NCBI RefSeq assembly: GCF_900110455.1 | Contig: NZ_FOIS01000002.1 | Span: 682,001-746,000 of the forward strand | Direction of reading: 5' to 3' | Length of the DNA stretch: 64,000 bases | DNA from: Natrinema salifodinae | GTDB taxonomy: Archaea > Halobacteriota > Halobacteria > Halobacteriales > Natrialbaceae | Shown: positions 30,447 to 44,565 of the stretch, in pieces | How positions within the stretch are numbered: position 1 is the stretch's first letter | Layout: every line of letters starts with the position of its first letter | Notes under the pieces: model-generated | The model's input: the letters and a program-made list of their open reading frames with translations, nothing else | What the model was told of the DNA's origin: nothing | The model's database searches: none | Made by a program: the position numbers and the translations under genes

Positions 30447-31460
30447 CTACGAGTCATCGTATCGCCGTTCGTAGACGATCCCCGACTCGCCGACGACCAG
30501 TTGCGGCGTCCGGGCGGTCCCGAGCGCGACCGCGAGCAGTTCGTTGCCAGGCCGGAGTCCGGCGAGTTCGGTCCAGCCGTCGTAGCTGCGCTCGTAGATC
30601 GTTCCCGACGTCGAGACCGCCAGCGCGTCGTCGCGGTCCCGCGCGAGCGCCGCGATCGGCTGCTCGCCGACCGTCGTCCGCGACCAGGCGACCCCGTTGT
30701 AGCGGTAGACGACGCCGTTGCCCCCGGCGACCGAAACGTGGCCGGAATCGGTCGCCGCGACCGCCTCGAAGTCGACGGCCGCGCCGTCGATTCCGATCCG
30801 GGACCAGGCGACGCCGCCGTCGCGGGACTCGAAGACGCCGCCGTCGGTGTCGACGACGTACCCGTACGCGAGCGGGGTGAGGGCGACGTCGGTGACGCTC
30901 GAGCCGGTGCCGGGCTCGGTCACGTCGCCCCACGAGACGTCGGCGCCGTCGCGCCGCCCCCGGAGGAGTTCCCCGGAGCTGTTGATGACCGTCAGCCGCT
31001 CGTCGCCGGCCAGGCCGGCGGCCGCGACCGACGTCCACGACGTCGTCTTCCCGTTCGGGGCGGAGAAGTCCGCGACGTGATCGGCGACAACGTCGTAGAG
31101 GCCGAGCGCGCCGCTGTCGCCGGCGACCCACAGCGCCCGCCCGTTGCTCGTGACCGCCGCCGAGCGGAGGCCGTCGCCCGCGTCACCGACCCCGTTCTCG
31201 AGGCGGACGGTCCAGTCGCCGCCGTCGCGGGCGAGGACGACGCCGTCTTCGCCGACCGCGTAGGCGCCGTCGGCCGTCGGCACCACGTCGTACAGCGTCG
31301 CGTCGGTCGGAACGTCGGCGCGGACCCACTCGCCGTCGACGTCGTCCTCAAGACAGCCGGCGAGCGACAGCGAACCGACCGCGGCCCCGGCCGCCGCGAG
31401 GACGGCGCGTCGGGTGTGGCGGGGGCGAGAGTGGGACCGGGAGCGAGTGCGATCGAGCAT
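30447..31460 (-). CDS. Tat lipoprotein with Ycf48/BNR-like beta-propeller
   Basis: A 337-residue secreted protein. A Tat signal (HTRRAVLAAAGAAVGSLSLA) ends in a lipobox Cys. The mature part is a propeller of degenerate repeats such as AYAVGEDGVVLARDGGDWTV, VAGDSGALGLYDVVADHVAD and VVYRYNGVAWSRTTVGEQPI, similar to Ycf48-like and BNR-repeat proteins. It is a paralogue of the cytoplasmic propeller at 42441-43682: compare VAGDSGALGLYDV with FAGDSGALGYYDV, and SWGDVTEPGTGSSV with VWGDVVEPGGGSTI. Its ATG overlaps the stop of the upstream membrane protein gene. Its function is not known; propellers of this kind often act in assembly of membrane complexes. Confidence 0.85.
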   Translation of the reverse strand: MLDRTRSRSHSRPRHTRRAVLAAAGAAVGSLSLAGCLEDDVDGEWVRADVPTDATLYDVVPTADGAYAVGEDGVVLARDGGDWTVRLENGVGDAGDGLRSAAVTSNGRALWVAGDSGALGLYDVVADHVADFSAPNGKTTSWTSVAAAGLAGDERLTVINSSGELLRGRRDGADVSWGDVTEPGTGSSVTDVALTPLAYGYVVDTDGGVFESRDGGVAWSRIGIDGAAVDFEAVAATDSGHVSVAGGNGVVYRYNGVAWSRTTVGEQPIAALARDRDDALAVSTSGTIYERSYDGWTELAGLRPGNELLAVALGTARTPQLVVGESGIVYERRYDDS

Positions 31461-32887
31461 CAGTCGCCCTCGCGCGCTCCGCCGTCGGCGGCGGCGTCGT
31501 CCGGCGTCGATTCTTCGGACTCGGCTCCCGTATTGGTCTCGTCCCGGCCCGGCCGAATCGCCCCTCGGGCCTCGTGCGCCTGGTGGAACTCGCCTGGCGG
31601 CGTGAACGCGCCGGGCGCGGAGGTCCGCATAAGGACGGCCGAGATGCGGACGACATACGCGAAGAGAACCGCGAGCGGACTGAACGCGACCGCGAGCGCC
31701 AGGCTCACGAGCGCGAGCAGCCACCCCTCGAAGGCGACCGGCGGGTAGCCGCTCGCGTAGATCATGATGACCAGCGACGAGAGCAGGATCGCGGCGGTGC
31801 CGCTGTAGGTGATCAACCGCGACAGCCGCGCGAGCTCGCGCTGGAGGTAGATCGTCGTGAAGTACTGACGCGTCGCGTCCGCGATGACGAACAGCTCGCG
31901 GAGCTCCGCGAGCAGCGACGCCGCGCGGTCGGACAGCTCCCCGTCGAACCGACGGCCGAGCCGCCTGGCCTCGTTGGCGGCGCCGGCGTAGTCGTGGTCG
32001 ATCGTCGGTAACACGACGGCGAACACCGACTCCGTGCCGCCGGTGAGCTGCACGGAGAGGGCGTTCGTGTGCTCGCGCGTCCGTTCCGCGAAGCGACAGA
32101 TCGATTCGAGGGCGCGGATCGGCGTTCCGTCGACTCCGTCCTCGCCGGGTCGGCTGCGCTCGCTCGCGTCCCCGTCGTCCGCACGCCGACCCGCGTCCTC
32201 ACACTCGCTCGCGAGTTCGTCGGCACGACTGCCGAGCGTGCCGGCTAGGCGGGCGAGGAACGGCGCCGGATCGGAGGGGCTGACGCCGTCGCCCTCGGTC
32301 CGGGACTCGACGCGGCTGCGGAACTCCTGGACGCCGTCGATGCGGTCGGTGAGGCGGTCGGGCGTGCCGAACAGCCGGGAGATGATCAGCTGGTTGACCG
32401 AGACGACGATCGGGATGAACGAGAACAGTCCCGCGATCATCGTGCTGAACATCGTCGTGACGAACCGGCTCTCCCGGACGCCGATGACGTCGCTGACGCC
32501 GAGGACGAGCGCGAGGGCGAACACGCCGGCGACGAATCCGCCGACGATCACCCGCCGATCGCCCTCGAGCAGGACCCACCGCCAGCCGCGGCGACGCGAC
32601 GGGGTATCGGCGAGGTAGCGTGCGGTGATTCGGCCGCCGGCCCAGACGATGCGAGCGCCGACGACCGCTGCGGCGACCAGCAGCCGGAGGACGTATCCGA
32701 CGATCGAGAGCCCGATCGAGGACTCGGTATCGGCCTTCGTATCGGTCTCCGCGGCGGTATCGTCGCGGTCGCTGGTACCGTCACCGTCGCGGTCGCGGTC
32801 CTCGGTCGAGCGGCGATCGACGGTCTCCGCGCCGTCGACGCGCTCGGGCGATTCCGGATCGTCGCGGTCCGTTCGATCGTCGGTCAT
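31460..32887 (-). CDS. Haloarchaeal multi-pass membrane protein with cytoplasmic helical domain
   Basis: A 475-residue protein. The N-terminal ~55 residues are acidic and probably disordered (DDRTDRDDPESPERVDGAET). Two helices follow (SIVGYVLRLLVAAAVVGARI; IVGGFVAGVFALALVLGVSD) plus a third near FSTMIAGLFSFIPIVVSVNQ. A soluble helical region (~190-345) precedes two C-terminal helices (RLITYSGTAAILLSSLVIM; LLALVSLALAVAFSPLAVLF). The acidic C-terminus overlaps the propeller lipoprotein start (TGATG). I do not recognise a named family with certainty; tight coupling suggests that it works with the secreted propeller. Confidence 0.8.
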   Translation of the reverse strand: MTDDRTDRDDPESPERVDGAETVDRRSTEDRDRDGDGTSDRDDTAAETDTKADTESSIGLSIVGYVLRLLVAAAVVGARIVWAGGRITARYLADTPSRRRGWRWVLLEGDRRVIVGGFVAGVFALALVLGVSDVIGVRESRFVTTMFSTMIAGLFSFIPIVVSVNQLIISRLFGTPDRLTDRIDGVQEFRSRVESRTEGDGVSPSDPAPFLARLAGTLGSRADELASECEDAGRRADDGDASERSRPGEDGVDGTPIRALESICRFAERTREHTNALSVQLTGGTESVFAVVLPTIDHDYAGAANEARRLGRRFDGELSDRAASLLAELRELFVIADATRQYFTTIYLQRELARLSRLITYSGTAAILLSSLVIMIYASGYPPVAFEGWLLALVSLALAVAFSPLAVLFAYVVRISAVLMRTSAPGAFTPPGEFHQAHEARGAIRPGRDETNTGAESEESTPDDAAADGGAREGD

Positions 32888-35461: not shown

Positions 35462-36985
35462 ATGCTCCCAGCAATACCCATCCCCACTGACGTGTCCGGC
35501 CTCGCGCTTGCCCAGGGACGACCGTTCGTCGCGCCGGCGCTGGCGGTGATCGAACACGGACAGTTCCGGTGGGCGTCGGTCGCCGGACGGCCGATCGGCA
35601 CCGCAGTCGCGTTCGGCGCCCCCGTCCCGGACGCCAACGGGGGCGGCCTTGACCTCGCAGCCAGGCTGGTCGGACTGCTCGGTGCGTTCTTGCTCCGCCT
35701 GCTCGAGGCCGCGGTCATCGCGTTCGAGATGGCCTGGGAGACCTGGTGGGCGCTCGTGCTCGGCTTTACGATCACCGGCGCTGTCCAGGAGTTCGTCGCC
35801 GAGGACCGGCTCACCGACTTCCTCGGCGACGACGGCTGGCGGGAGGTCGGCTACGGTGCCCTCTTCGGCGCCTCCTCATCGAGTTGCTCGTTCTCCGCAG
35901 TGGCGACGACCCGGTCGCTGTTCACCAAGGGCGCGTCGGCCGCGGCCAGCCTGGGCGCGTTCCAGTTCGCGAGCACGGACCTGGTGCTCGAACTCGCGCT
36001 CGTGGTCCTCCTCCTGCTCGGCTGGCAGTTCGCCGTCGCGGAGATTTTCGGCGGTCTTGTCGCCATCGCCGTCCTGGCGGTGATCTACCGCCGGTTCGTC
36101 CCCCGGCCGTGGGTCGACCGGGCGCGAGAGCACGCGCAGGCGCTCGATGAGACCGAGTGTGCGACCTGCGGGATGGCCGCGGACCCAACCGACGAAGAGA
36201 CGATCGACGCGACGTTCGACGGCGAGCGGCGGTACTTCTGCTGTTCCGGCTGCCGCAACGCGTACGATCCGGCGACCGATCGCGAGGCCGTCACCGCCGG
36301 CCCCGAACTCCTCTCGGGCGATCGCTGGCGGTCGGCGATCGCGAACGCGATCCGCGAGTGGGACATGCTCTGGCGGGACATCGCGATCGGCTTCGTCATC
36401 GCCGGTCTGCTGGCCGCGCTCGTCCCGACCGCCTGGTGGACCGCCGTCTTCGGCGTCGGCGCCGAGGGCAGTCTCACCCGCCTGGTCTCGAACGTCGTTC
36501 TCGGCGCCGTCGTCGGCGTCCTGACGTTCCTCTGTTCGGTGGGAAACGTCCCCTTCGCGGTCGTCCTCTGGCAGAACGGCGTCTCGTTCGGCGGCGTCCT
36601 CGCGTTCATCTTCGCGGACCTGCTGATCCTGCCGCTGGTCCGCACCTACCGGCGGTACTACGGGACCCGCATGGCCGCCGTGATCTCCGTCGCGTTCTTC
36701 CTCGCGGCGACGACGGCCGGGCTCGCCGTCGAACTCGTCTTCACTGCCCTGGGCCTCGTGCCGCCCGCGGGCGCGGTTGGCGGCACGGTCTCCGGGACCT
36801 ACACCGCCCTGTTCAACGTCGTCGCCCTCCCGATCTTCGCGGGCCAGGTCTACGTGGCCCTCGACCCCCACCAGCGCGCCCGCATCGGGAAGCGACTCGC
36901 GCCCCACGTCGCCGGCGTCCTCATCCGTACCCACCAGCTCCTCGAGCGGCTCGCCTACGCGCTCGAGGACCGCGGACTGAAGTGA
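35462..36985 (+). CDS. Two-part permease (DUF318/ArsP-like) with an internal YHS/TRASH metal-binding domain
   Basis: A 507-residue membrane protein with two homologous permease halves. The first carries ALFGASSSSCSFSAVATTRS; the second carries FLCSVGNVPFAVVLWQNGVS and FADLLILPLV. Both match the DUF318/YraQ permease family, some members of which export arsenicals. Between the halves is a cytoplasmic domain (~230-270) with ECATCGM and RYFCCSGCRNAYDP: Cys233, Cys236, Cys260, Cys261 and Cys264, the TRASH/YHS pattern that senses or carries soft metals. A metal or metalloid transporter is likely; the ion is unknown. Confidence 0.88.
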   Translation: MLPAIPIPTDVSGLALAQGRPFVAPALAVIEHGQFRWASVAGRPIGTAVAFGAPVPDANGGGLDLAARLVGLLGAFLLRLLEAAVIAFEMAWETWWALVLGFTITGAVQEFVAEDRLTDFLGDDGWREVGYGALFGASSSSCSFSAVATTRSLFTKGASAAASLGAFQFASTDLVLELALVVLLLLGWQFAVAEIFGGLVAIAVLAVIYRRFVPRPWVDRAREHAQALDETECATCGMAADPTDEETIDATFDGERRYFCCSGCRNAYDPATDREAVTAGPELLSGDRWRSAIANAIREWDMLWRDIAIGFVIAGLLAALVPTAWWTAVFGVGAEGSLTRLVSNVVLGAVVGVLTFLCSVGNVPFAVVLWQNGVSFGGVLAFIFADLLILPLVRTYRRYYGTRMAAVISVAFFLAATTAGLAVELVFTALGLVPPAGAVGGTVSGTYTALFNVVALPIFAGQVYVALDPHQRARIGKRLAPHVAGVLIRTHQLLERLAYALEDRGLK

Positions 36986-37052: not shown

Positions 37053-38459
37053 ATGACACCACCGCTAGTCACTTCCGCGACCGACCGGCTCGATCCGGTC
37101 CGGCTCGTCTGCCTCGTCGCCCTCGTGGCGAGTCACGGCCTGGTTCGCCTGGCCGAACGCTACCTCCCCGCGTTCGTGACCGCGCTGGGCCACGGACCGC
37201 TCGTCGTCGGCGCGCTGGTGACGCTCGGCCTGGGCGTCGCCGCGGCGGGGGCCGAGTACACGACCGACGCGATCGACGAGGGCGCGACGACCGATCGCGA
37301 ACGGACAGCGATCGCGGTACTGGCGGCGCTGCTCGGGGCCGTCGGCCTGCTCGCCTGGGCGGGCGCGCCGACGCTCGATACGCTGCTGGGGACGCCGCTG
37401 ACGTCGCTGGGCTGGCTCGCGGTCGGCGCCGTCGTCCTCCAAACGTGGCACGTCGCCGGGCCCGTCCGCCACCTGTGGCCGGTCGATATCCGGATCGCGT
37501 CATCGCCCGCGAGCGCGGCCGATGAACCCGACGGCAACCAGGCGGGCGCGGACGATGGGGACCGGGAGCGAACGCCGCGGCGAGCCCGCGCGCCCGACCG
37601 GCGAATGCGGATCGTCGTCGGCGCGCTCGGAATCGCCGCCGCGGCGGTGGTCGCGACCGCGGCCGTCGCTAGCGCCGACGGGGTCCGCGCCGGGTTCGCG
37701 CTCGTCGCCGCGACGGGAGCCGCGGTCGCAGTCGTCGGCGCGGTGACGCTCGGCACCGTCGGCGACCGATCGACGCTCTCGGTTGGCCGCCTGGCGACGG
37801 CGAGCGGCGACCGGAAGGGCGCGGGAAGCGACGCCGACGCCCCGCTGACGGTCGTCCGGCGCGCCGTCTCGCGGCTGCCCGACCGCCGGCGGTGGGCCGT
37901 CGTCGGCGACGCGCTCGTCCGCGTCGCGATCGCGGGCGCCTGGCCGTACCTGATCCTCTTGGTCGTCGACTACCGGCCGCTCGCCCGCTCGGTCGGCGGA
38001 CTCTCGTTGGGCCCGGCCGCCGTCTTCGGGCTGTTCGTACTCGCGGAGGCGGTGGGGGCGATCGCCGGCGCGATCGCCGCGCCGGCGCTTGCCGCGCGCG
38101 TCGATCGGCGTGCGCTGCTGATCGCCGGGCTCGCGGGTCTCTCGCTGGTGCCGCTGGCGCTCGCGGCGGCGCCGGCCAGCGTCGGGGTCGTCGCCGTCCT
38201 GTTCGCCCTCGCGGGCTGTCGTAGCGCGATCGAACCGCTCCGGCCGACCGTCGGCGCCGGCGTCCGCGCCGCGCCGGTTCCCGGACCGCGGCTCCCCGAC
38301 GCCGTCCGAACCGGGGTTCGCCTCGCCGTCGTTCCCGCGCCGCTGGTTGGCGGGCTCCTGTACGCGATCGACCCCCTCGTGGCTTTCACCGTCGCGACGA
38401 CGGTCGGCCTGCTCGGCGTCCGCGAGCTTGGTCGCGCGTTCACGTTCGACCGCCGATGA
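37053..38459 (+). CDS. Major facilitator superfamily-like transporter
   Basis: A 468-residue protein with about eleven or twelve hydrophobic segments, arranged as two halves around a long hydrophilic loop (DEPDGNQAGADDGDRERTPR). The second half shows VVGDALVRVAIAGAWPYLIL and RVDRRALLIAGLAGLSLVPL, the latter resembling the cytoplasmic RxxRR loop of MFS proteins. The first ~25 residues lead into LVALVASHGLVRLAERYLPA. It overlaps the oxidase gene by four bases (ATGA), so the two are coupled. Substrate unknown; no close characterised family was recognised. Confidence 0.72.
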   Translation: MTPPLVTSATDRLDPVRLVCLVALVASHGLVRLAERYLPAFVTALGHGPLVVGALVTLGLGVAAAGAEYTTDAIDEGATTDRERTAIAVLAALLGAVGLLAWAGAPTLDTLLGTPLTSLGWLAVGAVVLQTWHVAGPVRHLWPVDIRIASSPASAADEPDGNQAGADDGDRERTPRRARAPDRRMRIVVGALGIAAAAVVATAAVASADGVRAGFALVAATGAAVAVVGAVTLGTVGDRSTLSVGRLATASGDRKGAGSDADAPLTVVRRAVSRLPDRRRWAVVGDALVRVAIAGAWPYLILLVVDYRPLARSVGGLSLGPAAVFGLFVLAEAVGAIAGAIAAPALAARVDRRALLIAGLAGLSLVPLALAAAPASVGVVAVLFALAGCRSAIEPLRPTVGAGVRAAPVPGPRLPDAVRTGVRLAVVPAPLVGGLLYAIDPLVAFTVATTVGLLGVRELGRAFTFDRR

Positions 38460-40000
38460 GGCGCTCCTCGACGCCGCGGCGTGCGATCCGGAGCGTCGGA
38501 ACCGTACTCGCGGGTCGCTCGGGCGTCGACCACCGGCGGCTCGGTCGCTGGCACCTCGCGTTCGCGCTGGCGATGGGTCTCTGGGGCGGGCTCGACGCCC
38601 TCCTCCTCCGGACGGCGCTGCTCACGCCGCGCCTGGCCCGGTGGCCGGCCGAGACCTACAACGCCTTCTTCACCACCCACGGGCTGACGATGCTGTTCCT
38701 GTTCGCGCTGCCGGCGATCTGGGGGTTCGCGTACGCCGCAGTCCCGCCGCTGATCGCGGCCGACGGCGTCGCGTCGCCGACGCTCGGCGCGCTGGCGTTC
38801 TGGCTGCAGATCCCCGCCGCGCTGTCGCTGCGTGCGGGCGCCGTCGGCGGCGTCCTCGGCGTGGCGGGATTCGAACCGGTCGCGATCGGGTGGACGCTGT
38901 ACCCCCCGCTGAGCGTCCGGTCGCCGAACCCCGCGATCGACGCCGTGCTCGTCGGCCTCCTGCTGGTCGCCGTCGGAACGGCGCTGACGGCGGCGAACCT
39001 CGTCGTCACGATCCGGCGGAATCGCGAGGTTCGGTGGCTCGACGTCGACACCTTCACCTGGACGGTGGTGACGGCCGCGGCGATGGCGGTCGTCGCCTTC
39101 CCCGTCCTGGCCGCCGCCGTCGCGCTGTTGCTCGCCGATCGGGCGCTCGAGACCGTGCTGATCGGCGACGGCGGCCTACTCGGCTGGCAGCACCTGTTCT
39201 GGTTCTTCGCCCACCCGCTGGTGTACGTGCTCGTGTTACCCCCGATGGGGATCGTCAGCCATGTCCTCCCACGGTTCGCCGGCCGCCGGCTGTTCGGTCG
39301 GCGCTCGTCGGTCTACTCGACGCTCGCGATCGGCGTCGTCTCCTTCACCGTCTGGGCCCACCACATGTTCGTGACGGGTATGAGCCCCGCCGTGCGAACG
39401 GTCTTCATGCTCACCACGCTGGCGGTGGCCCTCCCGAGTTCGGCGAAACTCTGCACCTGGCTCGTCACGCTGTGGGGCGGTTCGATCCGCTATACCGCTC
39501 CGATGCTCGCCGCCCTCGCCGCGGTCGGCTTCTTCGTCGTCGGCGGCGTCACCGGCGTCTTCCTCGCCGCGCCGCCGATCAACATTCGCTACACCGGGAC
39601 CTACTACGTCGTCGCGCACTTCCACCTGCTGCTGGCCGGCTTCGTCGGCCTGGCGCTCCTCGCCGGCGCCTACTACTGGTACCCCCTGCTGACCGGCCGC
39701 CGGCTCGAGCCGGGCCTGGCCCGCCTGCACGTCTGGCTCACCGTCGTCGGGATCGCCGTGACGTTCGGCGCGCTCCTGCTCGTCGGCCTCGCGGCGTTAC
39801 CCCGGCGCGTCGCGACCTATCCGGCGAGGTACGCGCCGCTGCACCAGCTCGCGACCGTCGGGACCTACGTCATCGTGGCCGGCCAGGCGGCCTTCCTCTG
39901 GAACCTCGGTCGATCGGTCCGGACGGGCGAGCCGGCGTCGGCGGATCCGTGGGATCTCGAGGGCGGCCCGTCGCACACGCGCGAGTGGCGGCGTCGATAG
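38456..40000 (+). CDS. Heme-copper oxidase subunit I-like protein lacking the D-channel glutamate
   Basis: Membrane terminal oxidase catalytic subunit, 514 residues. The sequence shows low-spin heme ligands His75 (TTHGLTMLF) and His390, high-spin heme ligand His388 (VAHFHLLLAG), Cu-B ligands His253 (FAHPLVY), His302 and His303 (WAHHMF), and the cross-linked tyrosine Tyr257. Lys331 in AKLCTWLVTLWGG matches the K channel. The usual A-family HPEVY is HPLVY, so the D-channel glutamate is Leu255. GWTLYPPLS and QHLFWFF still resemble A-type oxidases. No subunit II or III gene is adjacent; the small membrane protein at 40202 might be an accessory. Proton pumping cannot be judged from sequence. Confidence 0.88.
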   Translation: MRRSSTPRRAIRSVGTVLAGRSGVDHRRLGRWHLAFALAMGLWGGLDALLLRTALLTPRLARWPAETYNAFFTTHGLTMLFLFALPAIWGFAYAAVPPLIAADGVASPTLGALAFWLQIPAALSLRAGAVGGVLGVAGFEPVAIGWTLYPPLSVRSPNPAIDAVLVGLLLVAVGTALTAANLVVTIRRNREVRWLDVDTFTWTVVTAAAMAVVAFPVLAAAVALLLADRALETVLIGDGGLLGWQHLFWFFAHPLVYVLVLPPMGIVSHVLPRFAGRRLFGRRSSVYSTLAIGVVSFTVWAHHMFVTGMSPAVRTVFMLTTLAVALPSSAKLCTWLVTLWGGSIRYTAPMLAALAAVGFFVVGGVTGVFLAAPPINIRYTGTYYVVAHFHLLLAGFVGLALLAGAYYWYPLLTGRRLEPGLARLHVWLTVVGIAVTFGALLLVGLAALPRRVATYPARYAPLHQLATVGTYVIVAGQAAFLWNLGRSVRTGEPASADPWDLEGGPSHTREWRRR

Positions 40001-40061
40001 CGCCGTCTCCGAGTCTCTCGATAGGCGTCGCCGATAGCGCCGTCACCGGGTCTCTCGATAG
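39995..40061 (+). repeat. Imperfect 30-bp direct repeat, period 37
   Basis: Two copies, 39995-40024 and 40032-40061, begin CGATAGCGCCGTC and end GTCTCTCGATAG with a few substitutions between. The first copy contains the oxidase stop codon. They lie in the 201-base spacer before the 40202 gene. No further copies were noticed. Confidence 0.75.
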
Positions 40062-40201
40062 CTTCGCCCCGGGTTCGCTCCCGCTCGCTCTCACTGATTC
40101 CCGCCGCCGAATCGACCGCCGAGCAGTCGCATCGCTCTCCGACGACCGCACCGTCGTGCGGCCCGACAACCGTCCTAGCCGACCCAGCACACAGTCCACC
40201 C

Positions 40202-40528
40202 ATGGCAACCACCGCAAGCACCGACGTCGCACTGATGCTCCTGCAACTGATCGCGCTGACGATTCCGCCGGCCGTCGTCCTGGTCGAGCAACTGCGCCGC
40301 TCCGAGAACCTCGAGTGGCGGCTCCGCAAGCTGAGCTTCGGGCTCGTGATCGCGAGCGTCGCGCTGTTGCTCGCGGCCGCGGTCGCCGTCCTCGGGTACT
40401 TCGTCGCGAGCGTCGCGCTGCCGACCGCCGTCTCCGCCGGGCTGTTACTCGTCATCGCCGGCCTGGGTCCCCTCGGCGCGTTCCTCGCGATTCTCTACCG
40501 AGAACACCGGCTGGAACACGGTCCCTGA
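40202..40528 (+). CDS. Small membrane protein, three predicted helices
   Basis: A 108-residue protein with three hydrophobic segments (ALMLLQLIALTIPPAVVLVE, LVIASVALLLAAAVAVLGYF, SAGLLLVIAGLGPLGAFLAI) and a polar linker (LRRSENLEWRLRKLSFG). It follows the oxidase subunit gene after 201 bases and could be an accessory subunit, but no family was recognised, so that is only positional inference. Confidence 0.65.
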   Translation: MATTASTDVALMLLQLIALTIPPAVVLVEQLRRSENLEWRLRKLSFGLVIASVALLLAAAVAVLGYFVASVALPTAVSAGLLLVIAGLGPLGAFLAILYREHRLEHGP

Positions 40529-40648: not shown

Positions 40649-41062
40649 ATGTCCGATTACACACCGACAGACCGAGACTGCGACGACAGCGAGGAATCGA
40701 GCCCCGATGACGGCGCCGGCGATACCGGCGCCGACGGCAGCGACGGCAGCGATGGCGCGGATCCGCGACCGCTGACGAACCTGACCGGCTTCAAGCGAGA
40801 TCAGCTGTTCGTCATCCGGATGCTCGCGGACCGCAACCCCCACGGCCTGGTGATCAAGGATAAACTCGACTGCTACTACGACGAGGAGATCAATCAGGGC
40901 CGGCTCTACCAGAACCTCGGCGAACTCATCGAGGAGGGGTACGTCGAGAAGCGCCCGCTCGACGGCCGAACGAACGCCTATCGGCCGAGTACGCGCGCCA
41001 ACGAACTCCTCGAGGCCCACCACGAATGGGAACGGCGCTGCCTCTTCTGCGAGCACCACTGA
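40649..41062 (+). CDS. PadR family transcriptional regulator
   Basis: A 137-residue DNA-binding protein. The first ~45 residues are an acidic tail rich in Asp, Gly and Ser. The PadR winged helix follows (LTGFKRDQLFVIRMLADRN, INQGRLYQNLGELIEEGYVE, KRPLDGRTNAYRPSTRANEL). It ends with HHEWERRCLFCEHH, a Cys/His-rich tail that could bind metal. It precedes the pseudo-glutamate-dehydrogenase gene by 95 bases and might control it, although the order allows either co-transcription or a separate promoter. Confidence 0.88.
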   Translation: MSDYTPTDRDCDDSEESSPDDGAGDTGADGSDGSDGADPRPLTNLTGFKRDQLFVIRMLADRNPHGLVIKDKLDCYYDEEINQGRLYQNLGELIEEGYVEKRPLDGRTNAYRPSTRANELLEAHHEWERRCLFCEHH

Positions 41063-41157: not shown

Positions 41158-42444
41158 ATGACAGCACGCGATCACGACACCGACAGCGGCGAGTCCGGCC
41201 GAACAGCACCCGATCTCGACGCCCCGTGGACGTACGCGACGACAGCCGCGCGTCGCCTCGGGGTCCCAGACGAGATCGAGCACCGACTCCTCTATCCGCG
41301 CCAGCGCCAGCGGCTCTCGGTACCGTTCGAGCGCGACGACGGCACGCTCGGCGTCTGCGAGGGGTACCGCGTCCGCCACGACGGCGTCCGCGGCCCGTTC
41401 GTCGGCCCGCACCGATACGCCGACGCGCTAACCGGCGACGACTGCGCCGGCCTGGCCGCGGCGACGACCGTCGGCGCCGCGATCGCCGGCGTTCCCTTCG
41501 GCGGCGCGGCGGGCGGAATCGCCGTCGATCCGACGACGCTCTCGCGGGACGAACGCGTCCGGCTCATCCGCGCCTACGCGGCCCGCGTCGACGGCGTCGG
41601 CCCCGACGGCGACGTCCTCGTCCCCGACGTCGGGACCGACGAGCGCACCATGGCCCGATTCGCCGACGCCATCGCCGATCGGATCGACGGCCCGCCGCGA
41701 GCGACGGTCGCCGGAAAGCCGCCGGCCGTCGGCGGCTTCCGCGACATCCCGCGCGCGAGCGGCCACAGCGTCGCCCACGTGACACAGGACGTCCTCGAAA
41801 CCGACCGCGATCGGCCGCTGTCCGAGGCGACGATCGCCGTCGCCGGCACCGGCACCGTCGGCGCGACCGCGGCCCGCCTGCTCGAGTTCTGGGGCGGCAC
41901 CGTCGTCGCGATGTGCAGCGATCGGGCCGGGCTCACCGCGCCCGCTGACGAGGACGGTTTGGACGCGGATCTCGCCCCCAGCTATCTCGATCGACCGGGC
42001 GCGCTCGCGGCCTACGACGACGGAACGATGACCGGCACCGAGAACGTCCTCGAACGGGACGCCGACGTCCTCGTCCTCGCGGCCCCCGCGACGGCGGTCA
42101 CCGCCGAGAACGCGGCTGCGATCCGATCCGATCTCGTCGTCGAGGGCGCCGTCGGCGGCGTGACCCCCGGCGGCCAGGCCGCCCTCGAAGAGCGCGGCGT
42201 GACGGTCGTGCCCGCCACCCTGGCGACGGCCGGGACGATGGTCGCGGCCCACCTCGAGTGGGTCCAGAGCGTCGGCCGGGACCGGCTGAGCGACGCGCGC
42301 GTGACCAACGAGTTCGGCTACGCGCTCACCGACGCGGTCGCCGACGTGCGCGACCGCCGCGAGAGCTGCGACCTGACCTGGCGCCAGGCTGCCTACAGCG
42401 TCGGCCTCTCGCGGGTCGCGGCCGCCCACGAGGTGGTGCGATGA
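41158..42444 (+). CDS. Glu/Leu/Phe/Val dehydrogenase homologue without catalytic lysines (probable pseudoenzyme)
   Basis: A 428-residue protein with the full GDH layout. Conserved elements: VRGPFVGPHRYADALTGDDC, GVPFGGAAGGIAVDP, VLVPDVGTDERTM, VAGKPPAVGG and the Rossmann GTGTVG (230-235). Compared with the haloarchaeal GdhA pattern I recall, three conserved lysines are lost: the KGG lysine is Val82, the WMTWK lysine is Gly106 and the GGAKGG lysine is Ala118. The aspartate (Asp157) is kept. Catalysis of glutamate oxidation is therefore unlikely, while dinucleotide binding may survive. The next gene starts within its stop codon (ATGA). A regulatory or scaffold role is inferred, not shown. Confidence 0.88.
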   Translation: MTARDHDTDSGESGRTAPDLDAPWTYATTAARRLGVPDEIEHRLLYPRQRQRLSVPFERDDGTLGVCEGYRVRHDGVRGPFVGPHRYADALTGDDCAGLAAATTVGAAIAGVPFGGAAGGIAVDPTTLSRDERVRLIRAYAARVDGVGPDGDVLVPDVGTDERTMARFADAIADRIDGPPRATVAGKPPAVGGFRDIPRASGHSVAHVTQDVLETDRDRPLSEATIAVAGTGTVGATAARLLEFWGGTVVAMCSDRAGLTAPADEDGLDADLAPSYLDRPGALAAYDDGTMTGTENVLERDADVLVLAAPATAVTAENAAAIRSDLVVEGAVGGVTPGGQAALEERGVTVVPATLATAGTMVAAHLEWVQSVGRDRLSDARVTNEFGYALTDAVADVRDRRESCDLTWRQAAYSVGLSRVAAAHEVVR

Positions 42445-43682
42445 TCGACAGTCTGGACGACTCGCTGTCCGAGGCGCTCGCCTGGCTCCAGCGCGTCGGT
42501 TCCTCCGGCGCCGGCTCGGCCGGATCGAGCGCTGCGAACGGGGGCGACGAGACCGACGGGGCCGGAGCCGAGAGCGGCGACGGCCGCGACGGCGATCGCG
42601 GCGGCGGCCGGGTAACCGGTGTCGCGACCGACGACGGCGACCGGGACGACCGCGGCGGTTGGGAGGTCGTCGAATCGCCGACCTCGCGGACGCTCCACGG
42701 CGTCGTCCACGGTCAGGACGGCCCCTACGCCTGCGGCGAGGGCGGCCTCGTGCTCCACCGGACCGGCGACGCCTGGCGCGTCCTCTTAGAGCGCGGCCCC
42801 GGCGTCTCGGAGAACACCCTCCGATCGATCGCCGCGACCGACGACGGCTGTCGCCTGTGGTTCGCCGGCGATAGCGGCGCGCTCGGCTACTACGACGTGG
42901 CCGACGGCCACCTCAGCGACTACTCCGCGCCGATGGAGAAGACGAGCACCTGGGAGGCGATCGCCGTCGCCGGCGCGACCGGCGAGGAACGCGTCCGGAT
43001 CGCGAACGGCTCCGGGGAGGTGCTCGACTGCACCGTCGAGGACGGCTGTCCCGTCTGGGGCGACGTGGTCGAACCGGGCGGCGGATCGACGATCCCCGGC
43101 CTGACGGCGGGTCCCGACGGGTTCTACGCCGTCGACACCAGCGGCGGGGCGTACTTCGAACCCGCAGACGGTTCGGGCACGGGCACGGACGCGGACTCGG
43201 ATTCGCCTGCGACCGATTCCGGGGACGGCGACACGGAATCCGTAGACAGCGACCGGACCAACGACTGGAAACGGATCGGCGTTCGCAACGCTCAGGTCGA
43301 CTTCCAGGACGTCTGGGCCGGCGCCGATTCGGTCTTCATCGCCGGCGCCGACGGCATCGCCTACCGGTACGACCCCCGCTGCGAGAACTGGACGCCGCTA
43401 CACGTCGGCCAGGGCGCGCTCCAGGCGATCCGATCGGTCGGGACCGACGCGGTCGCGGTCGCGACCGGCGGCCGGATCTACGAACGCGACGCGAGCGTCC
43501 GCTGGACCGCCCTGGACGCACCGACCGAACAGTCGCTGCTCGATCTCGCGCTCGCCCGCTCGAGCGCCGACGTCGGGGACGGCCTGGCGACCGTCTCGGT
43601 CGACGTCGCCGTCGGGGCCGGCGGTGCGATCCTCGAGCGCGACCGCCGAGACCGCGAGGGTGCGGCGGACCGCCGTGACTGA
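42441..43682 (+). CDS. Cytoplasmic Ycf48/BNR-like beta-propeller protein
   Basis: A 413-residue protein with no signal peptide or membrane helix. The first ~70 residues are low-complexity acidic/Gly sequence. The propeller repeats include YACGEGGLVLHRTGDAWRVL, LWFAGDSGALGYYDVADGHL and VFIAGADGIAYRYDPRCENW. A Ser/Asp/Thr-rich insertion interrupts one blade (GTGTDADSDSPATDSGDGDT). It is paralogous to the secreted propeller at 30447-31460. The ATG overlaps the pseudo-GDH stop, so the two proteins are probably made together and may form a complex. Confidence 0.82.
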   Translation: MIDSLDDSLSEALAWLQRVGSSGAGSAGSSAANGGDETDGAGAESGDGRDGDRGGGRVTGVATDDGDRDDRGGWEVVESPTSRTLHGVVHGQDGPYACGEGGLVLHRTGDAWRVLLERGPGVSENTLRSIAATDDGCRLWFAGDSGALGYYDVADGHLSDYSAPMEKTSTWEAIAVAGATGEERVRIANGSGEVLDCTVEDGCPVWGDVVEPGGGSTIPGLTAGPDGFYAVDTSGGAYFEPADGSGTGTDADSDSPATDSGDGDTESVDSDRTNDWKRIGVRNAQVDFQDVWAGADSVFIAGADGIAYRYDPRCENWTPLHVGQGALQAIRSVGTDAVAVATGGRIYERDASVRWTALDAPTEQSLLDLALARSSADVGDGLATVSVDVAVGAGGAILERDRRDREGAADRRD

Positions 43683-43746: not shown

Positions 43747-44565
43747 ATGGTACCCGACGTTCGACTCCCGTTCACGACTCGTATCGATCGCGACTCGGTC
43801 CCGGTCGCGGAAACGCTCGTCCTCTCGCTGTCCGCCCTGCTGTGGTTCGTCCTCCGCCGGGGATGGCTCCCCGGGCCGGGACCGGTCCCGGACGGCCTCG
43901 ACGCGCCGATGAGCGCGCCAGGCGTTCCCGAAGCGGCGGCCACGGCAAACGGACTCGCCGGTGCCCTGGCCTACCTCCTGCTGTGGGGTGCGATGATGCT
44001 GACAATGATGCTCCCGTCGCTCCTTCCCGCCGTCCGGCGGTATCGGGACGAACTCTGCGACGCGCCGTCCGTTTTCGGCCCGTCGATCGCGGCGTTCGTC
44101 GGGGCCTACGGCCTCGTCTGGACGCTGGCCGGCGCCGTCCCGCTGGCGGTCGACTTCCTCCTCTCGATCCGCGGCCTGGTGACCGCGACGATCGGCGGGG
44201 TCGACGCCGGGGCGCTCGCGCTTGCCGGCCTGTTCGCGTTCGCGGGCGCCTACCAGTTCACGTCGCTGAAACGGGATCTGCTCGCGCGGTGTGCGCGCTG
44301 TCGATCGATCCCGCACCGCCCCGGCGTCCGCCGGATGGCGCGCGAGGGGGTCGAGTACGCCGCCAACTGCGTCGGCTGCACCTGGCCGCTGTTCGCGGCC
44401 ATGGTCGCGCTGGGATCGATGAACCACCTCGTCATGGTCGGCCTGACGCTGGTCGTCGCGCTCGAGCGCCTGGCGGCCAACGGCGAGGACATCGCGGTCG
44501 CCTGGGGCGTCGTCCTCCTCGGCGCGGCCGCGGTCGCGCTCCTCTCGGGCGTGCTCGGCATCTGA
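43747..44565 (+). CDS. DUF2182 family membrane protein
   Basis: A 272-residue membrane protein with about six helices. The motif LLLWGAMMLTMMLPSLLPAV, with its methionine-rich helix, and the cytoplasmic stretch QFTSLKRDLLARCARC are typical of DUF2182, annotated as predicted metal-binding integral membrane proteins. NCVGCTWPLFAAMVALGSMN is the second conserved helix. Function is not established. It stands between the propeller gene and the dicarboxylate symporter. Confidence 0.85.
   Translation: MVPDVRLPFTTRIDRDSVPVAETLVLSLSALLWFVLRRGWLPGPGPVPDGLDAPMSAPGVPEAAATANGLAGALAYLLLWGAMMLTMMLPSLLPAVRRYRDELCDAPSVFGPSIAAFVGAYGLVWTLAGAVPLAVDFLLSIRGLVTATIGGVDAGALALAGLFAFAGAYQFTSLKRDLLARCARCRSIPHRPGVRRMAREGVEYAANCVGCTWPLFAAMVALGSMNHLVMVGLTLVVALERLAANGEDIAVAWGVVLLGAAAVALLSGVLGI

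Follow-up and report, generated by a model that had tools for sequence, protein, structure and literature searches.

The gene that we call GDHL encodes a homologue of glutamate dehydrogenase (GDH) whose residues make it close to certain that the protein is non-catalytic as a GDH. It lies in the 64,000-nucleotide stretch of Natrinema salifodinae DNA analysed here (the window), inside a conserved cassette that also encodes a heme-copper oxidase subunit and a permease. Our favored interpretation, to which we give about an even chance of being right, is that GDHL is a GDH pseudoenzyme derived from a live cassette GDH and working by contact with other proteins, either as a scaffold in an oligomer or as a regulatory subunit. 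One gene block presents an evolutionary series, with a live GDH in some haloarchaeal families and a fully dead one, strongly selected, in another, and glutamate dehydrogenase is the wrong functional annotation for the GDHL genes. The gene and the codons at the lost lysine positions are as follows:

41158..42444, + strand: GDHL, putative GDH-like pseudoenzyme of 428 aa, with V82, G106 and A118 at the K89, K113 and K125 positions and A364 at that of S380
41401..41403, + strand: V82 codon (K89 position), placed by alignment; coordinate = 41158+3*(82-1)
41473..41475, + strand: G106 codon (K113 position), placed by alignment
41509..41511, + strand: A118 codon (position of K125, the catalytic lysine), within PFGGAAGG, placed by alignment

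Residue positions were set by aligning GDHL with solved GDHs and with the three GDHs of its own genome, and catalytic residues are assigned and numbered as in C. symbiosum GDH (K89, K113, K125). The alignment confirmed the original prediction that the three lysines are replaced by Val82, Gly106 and Ala118. Further losses were found at Ser380, which is replaced by A364, and at the Asn of NAGG, which is T357; Asp165 is present, and the nucleotide-binding glycine motif reads GTGTVG. The gene is also intact, as predicted, running from an ATG start to a TGA stop over 428 aa with no internal stop. By its two Pfam domains, both of which pass the gathering score (PF02812, 2e-30, 105.6 bits; PF00208, 3e-37, 129.1 bits), GDHL is a member of the GDH (ELFV dehydrogenase) homologous family, and solved GDHs match it down to E 8e-57. 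Its best NCBIfam profiles, NF041398 (haloarchaeal GdhB, GdhB_Halo) with 343 bits against a curated cut-off of 620 and then NF040817 (archaeal GdhA) with 216 bits against 750, both fall far short. The AlphaFold model is poor (pLDDT 59.6), below the quality needed for judging the substrate cleft or the interfaces. Since the three core GDHs of the same genome, to which GDHL is 34-42% identical, retain all the catalytic residues, the cell presumably need not rely on GDHL for GDH activity. The G+C content had been described as typical, which does not hold against the window (74.7% vs 67.3%) but does among the other cassette genes; because these have 64-76% (GC3 0.83-0.93), the value is ordinary for the neighborhood.

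The GDHL subfamily comprises 25 proteins in Natrialbaceae, namely the window protein and 24 orthologues with 40-81% identity. Close members occur in 23 of 125 family genomes and 11 of 29 genus genomes, and the 24th and 25th members, from Saliphagus (48%) and genome G029 (40%), were located through a named scan and the cassette. The named relatives are species of Natrinema, Haloterrigena, Natrialba, Halovivax, Natronoglomus, Halobiforma and Saliphagus. In an order-level search of a sample of 392 genomes, scores dropped from 680 bits for the subfamily to 408 bits for other GDHs. An alignment with lysines at the catalytic positions, which would speak against the loss, was not obtained: all three positions are without lysine in every one of the 25 members, whereas all three lysines are present in 38/38 core haloarchaeal GDHs compared, three of which are from the window genome. 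Asp165 and Ser380 are likewise kept by all 38 core GDHs and by three cassette GDHs described below. Among the 25 GDHL proteins the Asp165 position holds D in 13, G in 8, E in 3 and N in 1, a loss in 12, and Ser380 is missing from 24, including the window protein. Residue 82 (V, L, M, I or A) and residue 106 (S, T, G, A, R or Q) are variable and mostly small or hydrophobic. The G029 member carries L, Q and M at the three lysine positions, and its lysine loss may have been independent. Roughly half of the members have a degenerate GxGxxG motif, in Saliphagus the motif is shorter, and the GANGP Asn varies. The claim that the fold-defining motifs are retained is thus right for PDVGTD and GTGTVG in the window protein, but neither is fixed among the orthologues. 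In the Natrialba members (L045-L047) the nucleotide-binding domain is extended, close to residue 263 of the window protein, by an acidic, low-complexity insert that reaches about 30 residues at most. Core GDH number in genomes of the genus gave no signal (on average about 3.0 with GDHL and 3.4 without).

The further prediction that the gene is under selection for a non-catalytic purpose agrees with the absence of any retained lysine, the fixed synteny and the low dN/dS across relatives. YN00 estimates, restricted to close pairs with the near-saturated larger distances excluded, gave dN of 0.011-0.038, dS of 0.11-0.33 and dN/dS of 0.04-0.14, within the range of COX1, the permease and PadR from the same genomes, and these rates support strong purifying selection on GDHL. 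Conservation of the C-terminal segment is 0.84 in GDHL vs 0.77 in core GdhB, and the subfamily and the core GDHs have about 49 invariant residue positions in common. The active-site and cofactor residues that are invariant in the core drift in GDHL, and 22 positions conserved in core GdhB have switched and then become fixed in a different state, several of them (W102A, K118A, L85H, G84P) in the former substrate site or next to it. A GPHRY motif is fixed or nearly fixed, although its His85 is not universal. A drifting cofactor site together with a conserved C-terminal segment and 22 fixed switches would fit retention for shape and contacts rather than for a catalytic role or an NAD(P) function common to the subfamily.

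The genes around GDHL are the following:

35462..36985, + strand: ArsP_1 permease (PF03773) with a weak TRASH metal-binding match, cassette member
37053..38459, + strand: MFS-like membrane protein of the cassette, below the Pfam cut-off
38456..40000, + strand: heme-copper oxidase subunit I (COX1, PF00115), metal ligands kept, HPEVY changed to HPLVY
40202..40528, + strand: small membrane protein of the cassette, 108 aa, no family
40649..41062, + strand: PadR-like regulator (PF03551), 95 bp upstream of GDHL
42441..43682, + strand: propeller-like protein, co-conserved, its start codon overlapping the GDHL stop (ATGA)
43747..44565, + strand: PpoB2/DUF2182 putative copper chaperone (PF09948), usually adjoining the cassette

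The order permease (P318)-MFS-COX1-TM-PadR-GDHL-propeller is found in 22/22 neighborhoods besides the window (20 fetched, plus those of Saliphagus and G029). The DUF2182 gene comes after the propeller gene in most of them, and farther downstream the content is variable. The 25 family genomes with GDHL are also those that have a PadR orthologue at a threshold of E 1e-25, and all 23 close GDHL members end in ATGA or GTGA, so that the next ORF can begin on the stop codon. The propeller label is based on a paralogue at 30450-31724 (- strand), about 10 kb upstream, which matches PF14870 (YCF48-like); many other genomes likewise have a paralogue of this kind some 10-12 kb away from the cassette. No oxidase subunit II gene was recognized among the cassette genes examined (window 38456-40528), and we found no literature on the GDHL subfamily or its cassette.

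Evidence on the origin of GDHL comes from three haloarchaea of two other families, whose version of the cassette encodes a GDH that still has all three lysines (L138 in genome G215, L146 in G233 and L139 in G337). These proteins share both cassette and clade with GDHL but differ from it in having K89, K113, K125, Asp165, Ser380 and GxGxxG intact. A tree of 66 proteins separates the cassette GDHs from the core GDHs by a 100/99 branch. A domain I tree that also takes in GDHs of Thermus, Thermotoga, Bacillus and plants places the cassette GDHs in one group (99/99), with most of the lysine-less proteins nested among the lysine-bearing ones; their inner order is unsure owing to the long branches of G029, Saliphagus and L139. 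The occurrence of a lysine-bearing GDH in the same cassette and clade argues that an active enzyme of the cassette gave rise to the dead form, and from the trees and gene order we infer that this happened within Natrialbaceae, once or twice. Other cassettes outside the family (L140-L145, L147, L152, L153) keep the permease, COX1 and PadR without a recognizable GDH, and GDH is therefore not essential to the cassette.

The linked oxidase has changed as well. In cassette COX1 the histidines that bind heme and CuB are retained, but the HPEVY motif has Leu in place of its Glu in 20/23 GDHL cassettes (L062 and L123 have Glu, L063 has Gln). The Glu is kept in 12/12 cassettes with a lysine-bearing GDH or without a GDH. 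This comparison covers the window, L048-L067, L123, L124, L138-L147, L152 and L153; the genomes are related, so the pattern amounts to a few events at most, yet it suggests a joint change of the cassette genes. A more far-reaching idea, which we consider doubtful, is that the whole oxidase-permease-GDH cassette changed function in Natrialbaceae, with GDHL as a non-catalytic hub for the propeller and other cassette products and the oxidase, having lost the HPEVY Glu, forming part of an undescribed respiratory or redox-sensing complex.

In the interpretation that we favor, GDHL would still have the domain architecture of a GDH, with a large part of the conserved framework, but would lack the normal substrate site; judged by its sequence alone, it should not be capable of the glutamate reaction. 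Its ancestor would be a catalytic GDH already residing in the haloarchaeal oxidase/permease cassette, a placement seen in the gene order, with single descent supported by the trees. GDHL would be made together with the cassette proteins and would contact them, above all the product of the overlapping propeller gene. The main alternative partner would be core GdhB, in mixed hexamers like those of T. thermophilus GdhA, and gene linkage favors cassette partners at least as much as core GDH subunits. Two points count against the favored reading: the structure model is of low quality, and some cassettes outside the family do without a recognizable GDH.

The possibility that GDHL is a regulatory subunit of mixed hexamers with the core GDHs, tuning their activity as Thermus GdhA does for GdhB, is the rival that survives best, and we see it as real but somewhat unlikely. 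There is precedent in the T. thermophilus hexamer, which combines inactive GdhA as regulatory subunit with active GdhB (PMC9570180), and the GDHL genome offers three core GDHs, which share the roughly 49 invariant positions with the subfamily. However, GDHL has diverged far from these core GDHs, and its gene is linked to the cassette and not to theirs. We think it improbable that GDHL is a ligand sensor, its emptied site binding another metabolite or NAD(P) and signaling through domain closure. The switched and fixed positions around the old substrate site would suit such a role, but the drift of GxGxxG, of the Asn of GANGP and of the catalytic Asp makes classic NAD(P) binding unlikely as a shared function and weakens the NAD(P) sensing offered in the original prediction, the overall interpretation of which is partly supported. 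A new enzyme activity in the remodeled site is very unlikely: newly fixed residues such as those of GPHRY and the strong selection could be read in its favor, yet positions 82 and 106 vary among mostly small or hydrophobic residues and even His85 is not shared by all members. Loss of all the catalytic lysines might indicate a decaying pseudogene, but this we reject almost entirely in view of an intact gene in 25 genomes, the low dN/dS, the conserved synteny and the conserved stop/start overlap.

GDHL as a pseudoenzyme acting through contacts has its closest known counterpart in Thermus GdhA, which we identify with chain E of PDB 3AOE because PMC9570180 names chain A as GdhB. Among solved structures, this chain matches domain I of GDHL best (115.6 bits vs 96.0). 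Both proteins belong to the GDH family, both have Ala in place of the catalytic K125 in a PFGGAAGGIAVDP motif (PFGGAAGG in both), and both occur in cells that have another, active GDH subunit, the inactivity of GDHL being read from its sequence. Thermus GdhA differs in keeping K89, K113 and Asp165 and in having the C-terminal tail that shapes its leucine site, which GDHL lacks; the two retained lysines and the missing tail also count against the mixed-hexamer explanation. It is placed elsewhere than GDHL in the domain I tree, where a single clade of the two was rejected (AU p 0.026, with long branches and printed fragments only), so membership of the same lineage is not supported and the K125-to-A change is apparently convergent. 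That GDHL works like Thermus GdhA is nevertheless plausible by analogy. With the series of live and dead cassette GDHs, and Thermus GdhA as an independent bacterial parallel, the conversion of an enzyme into a structural or regulatory partner becomes directly testable.
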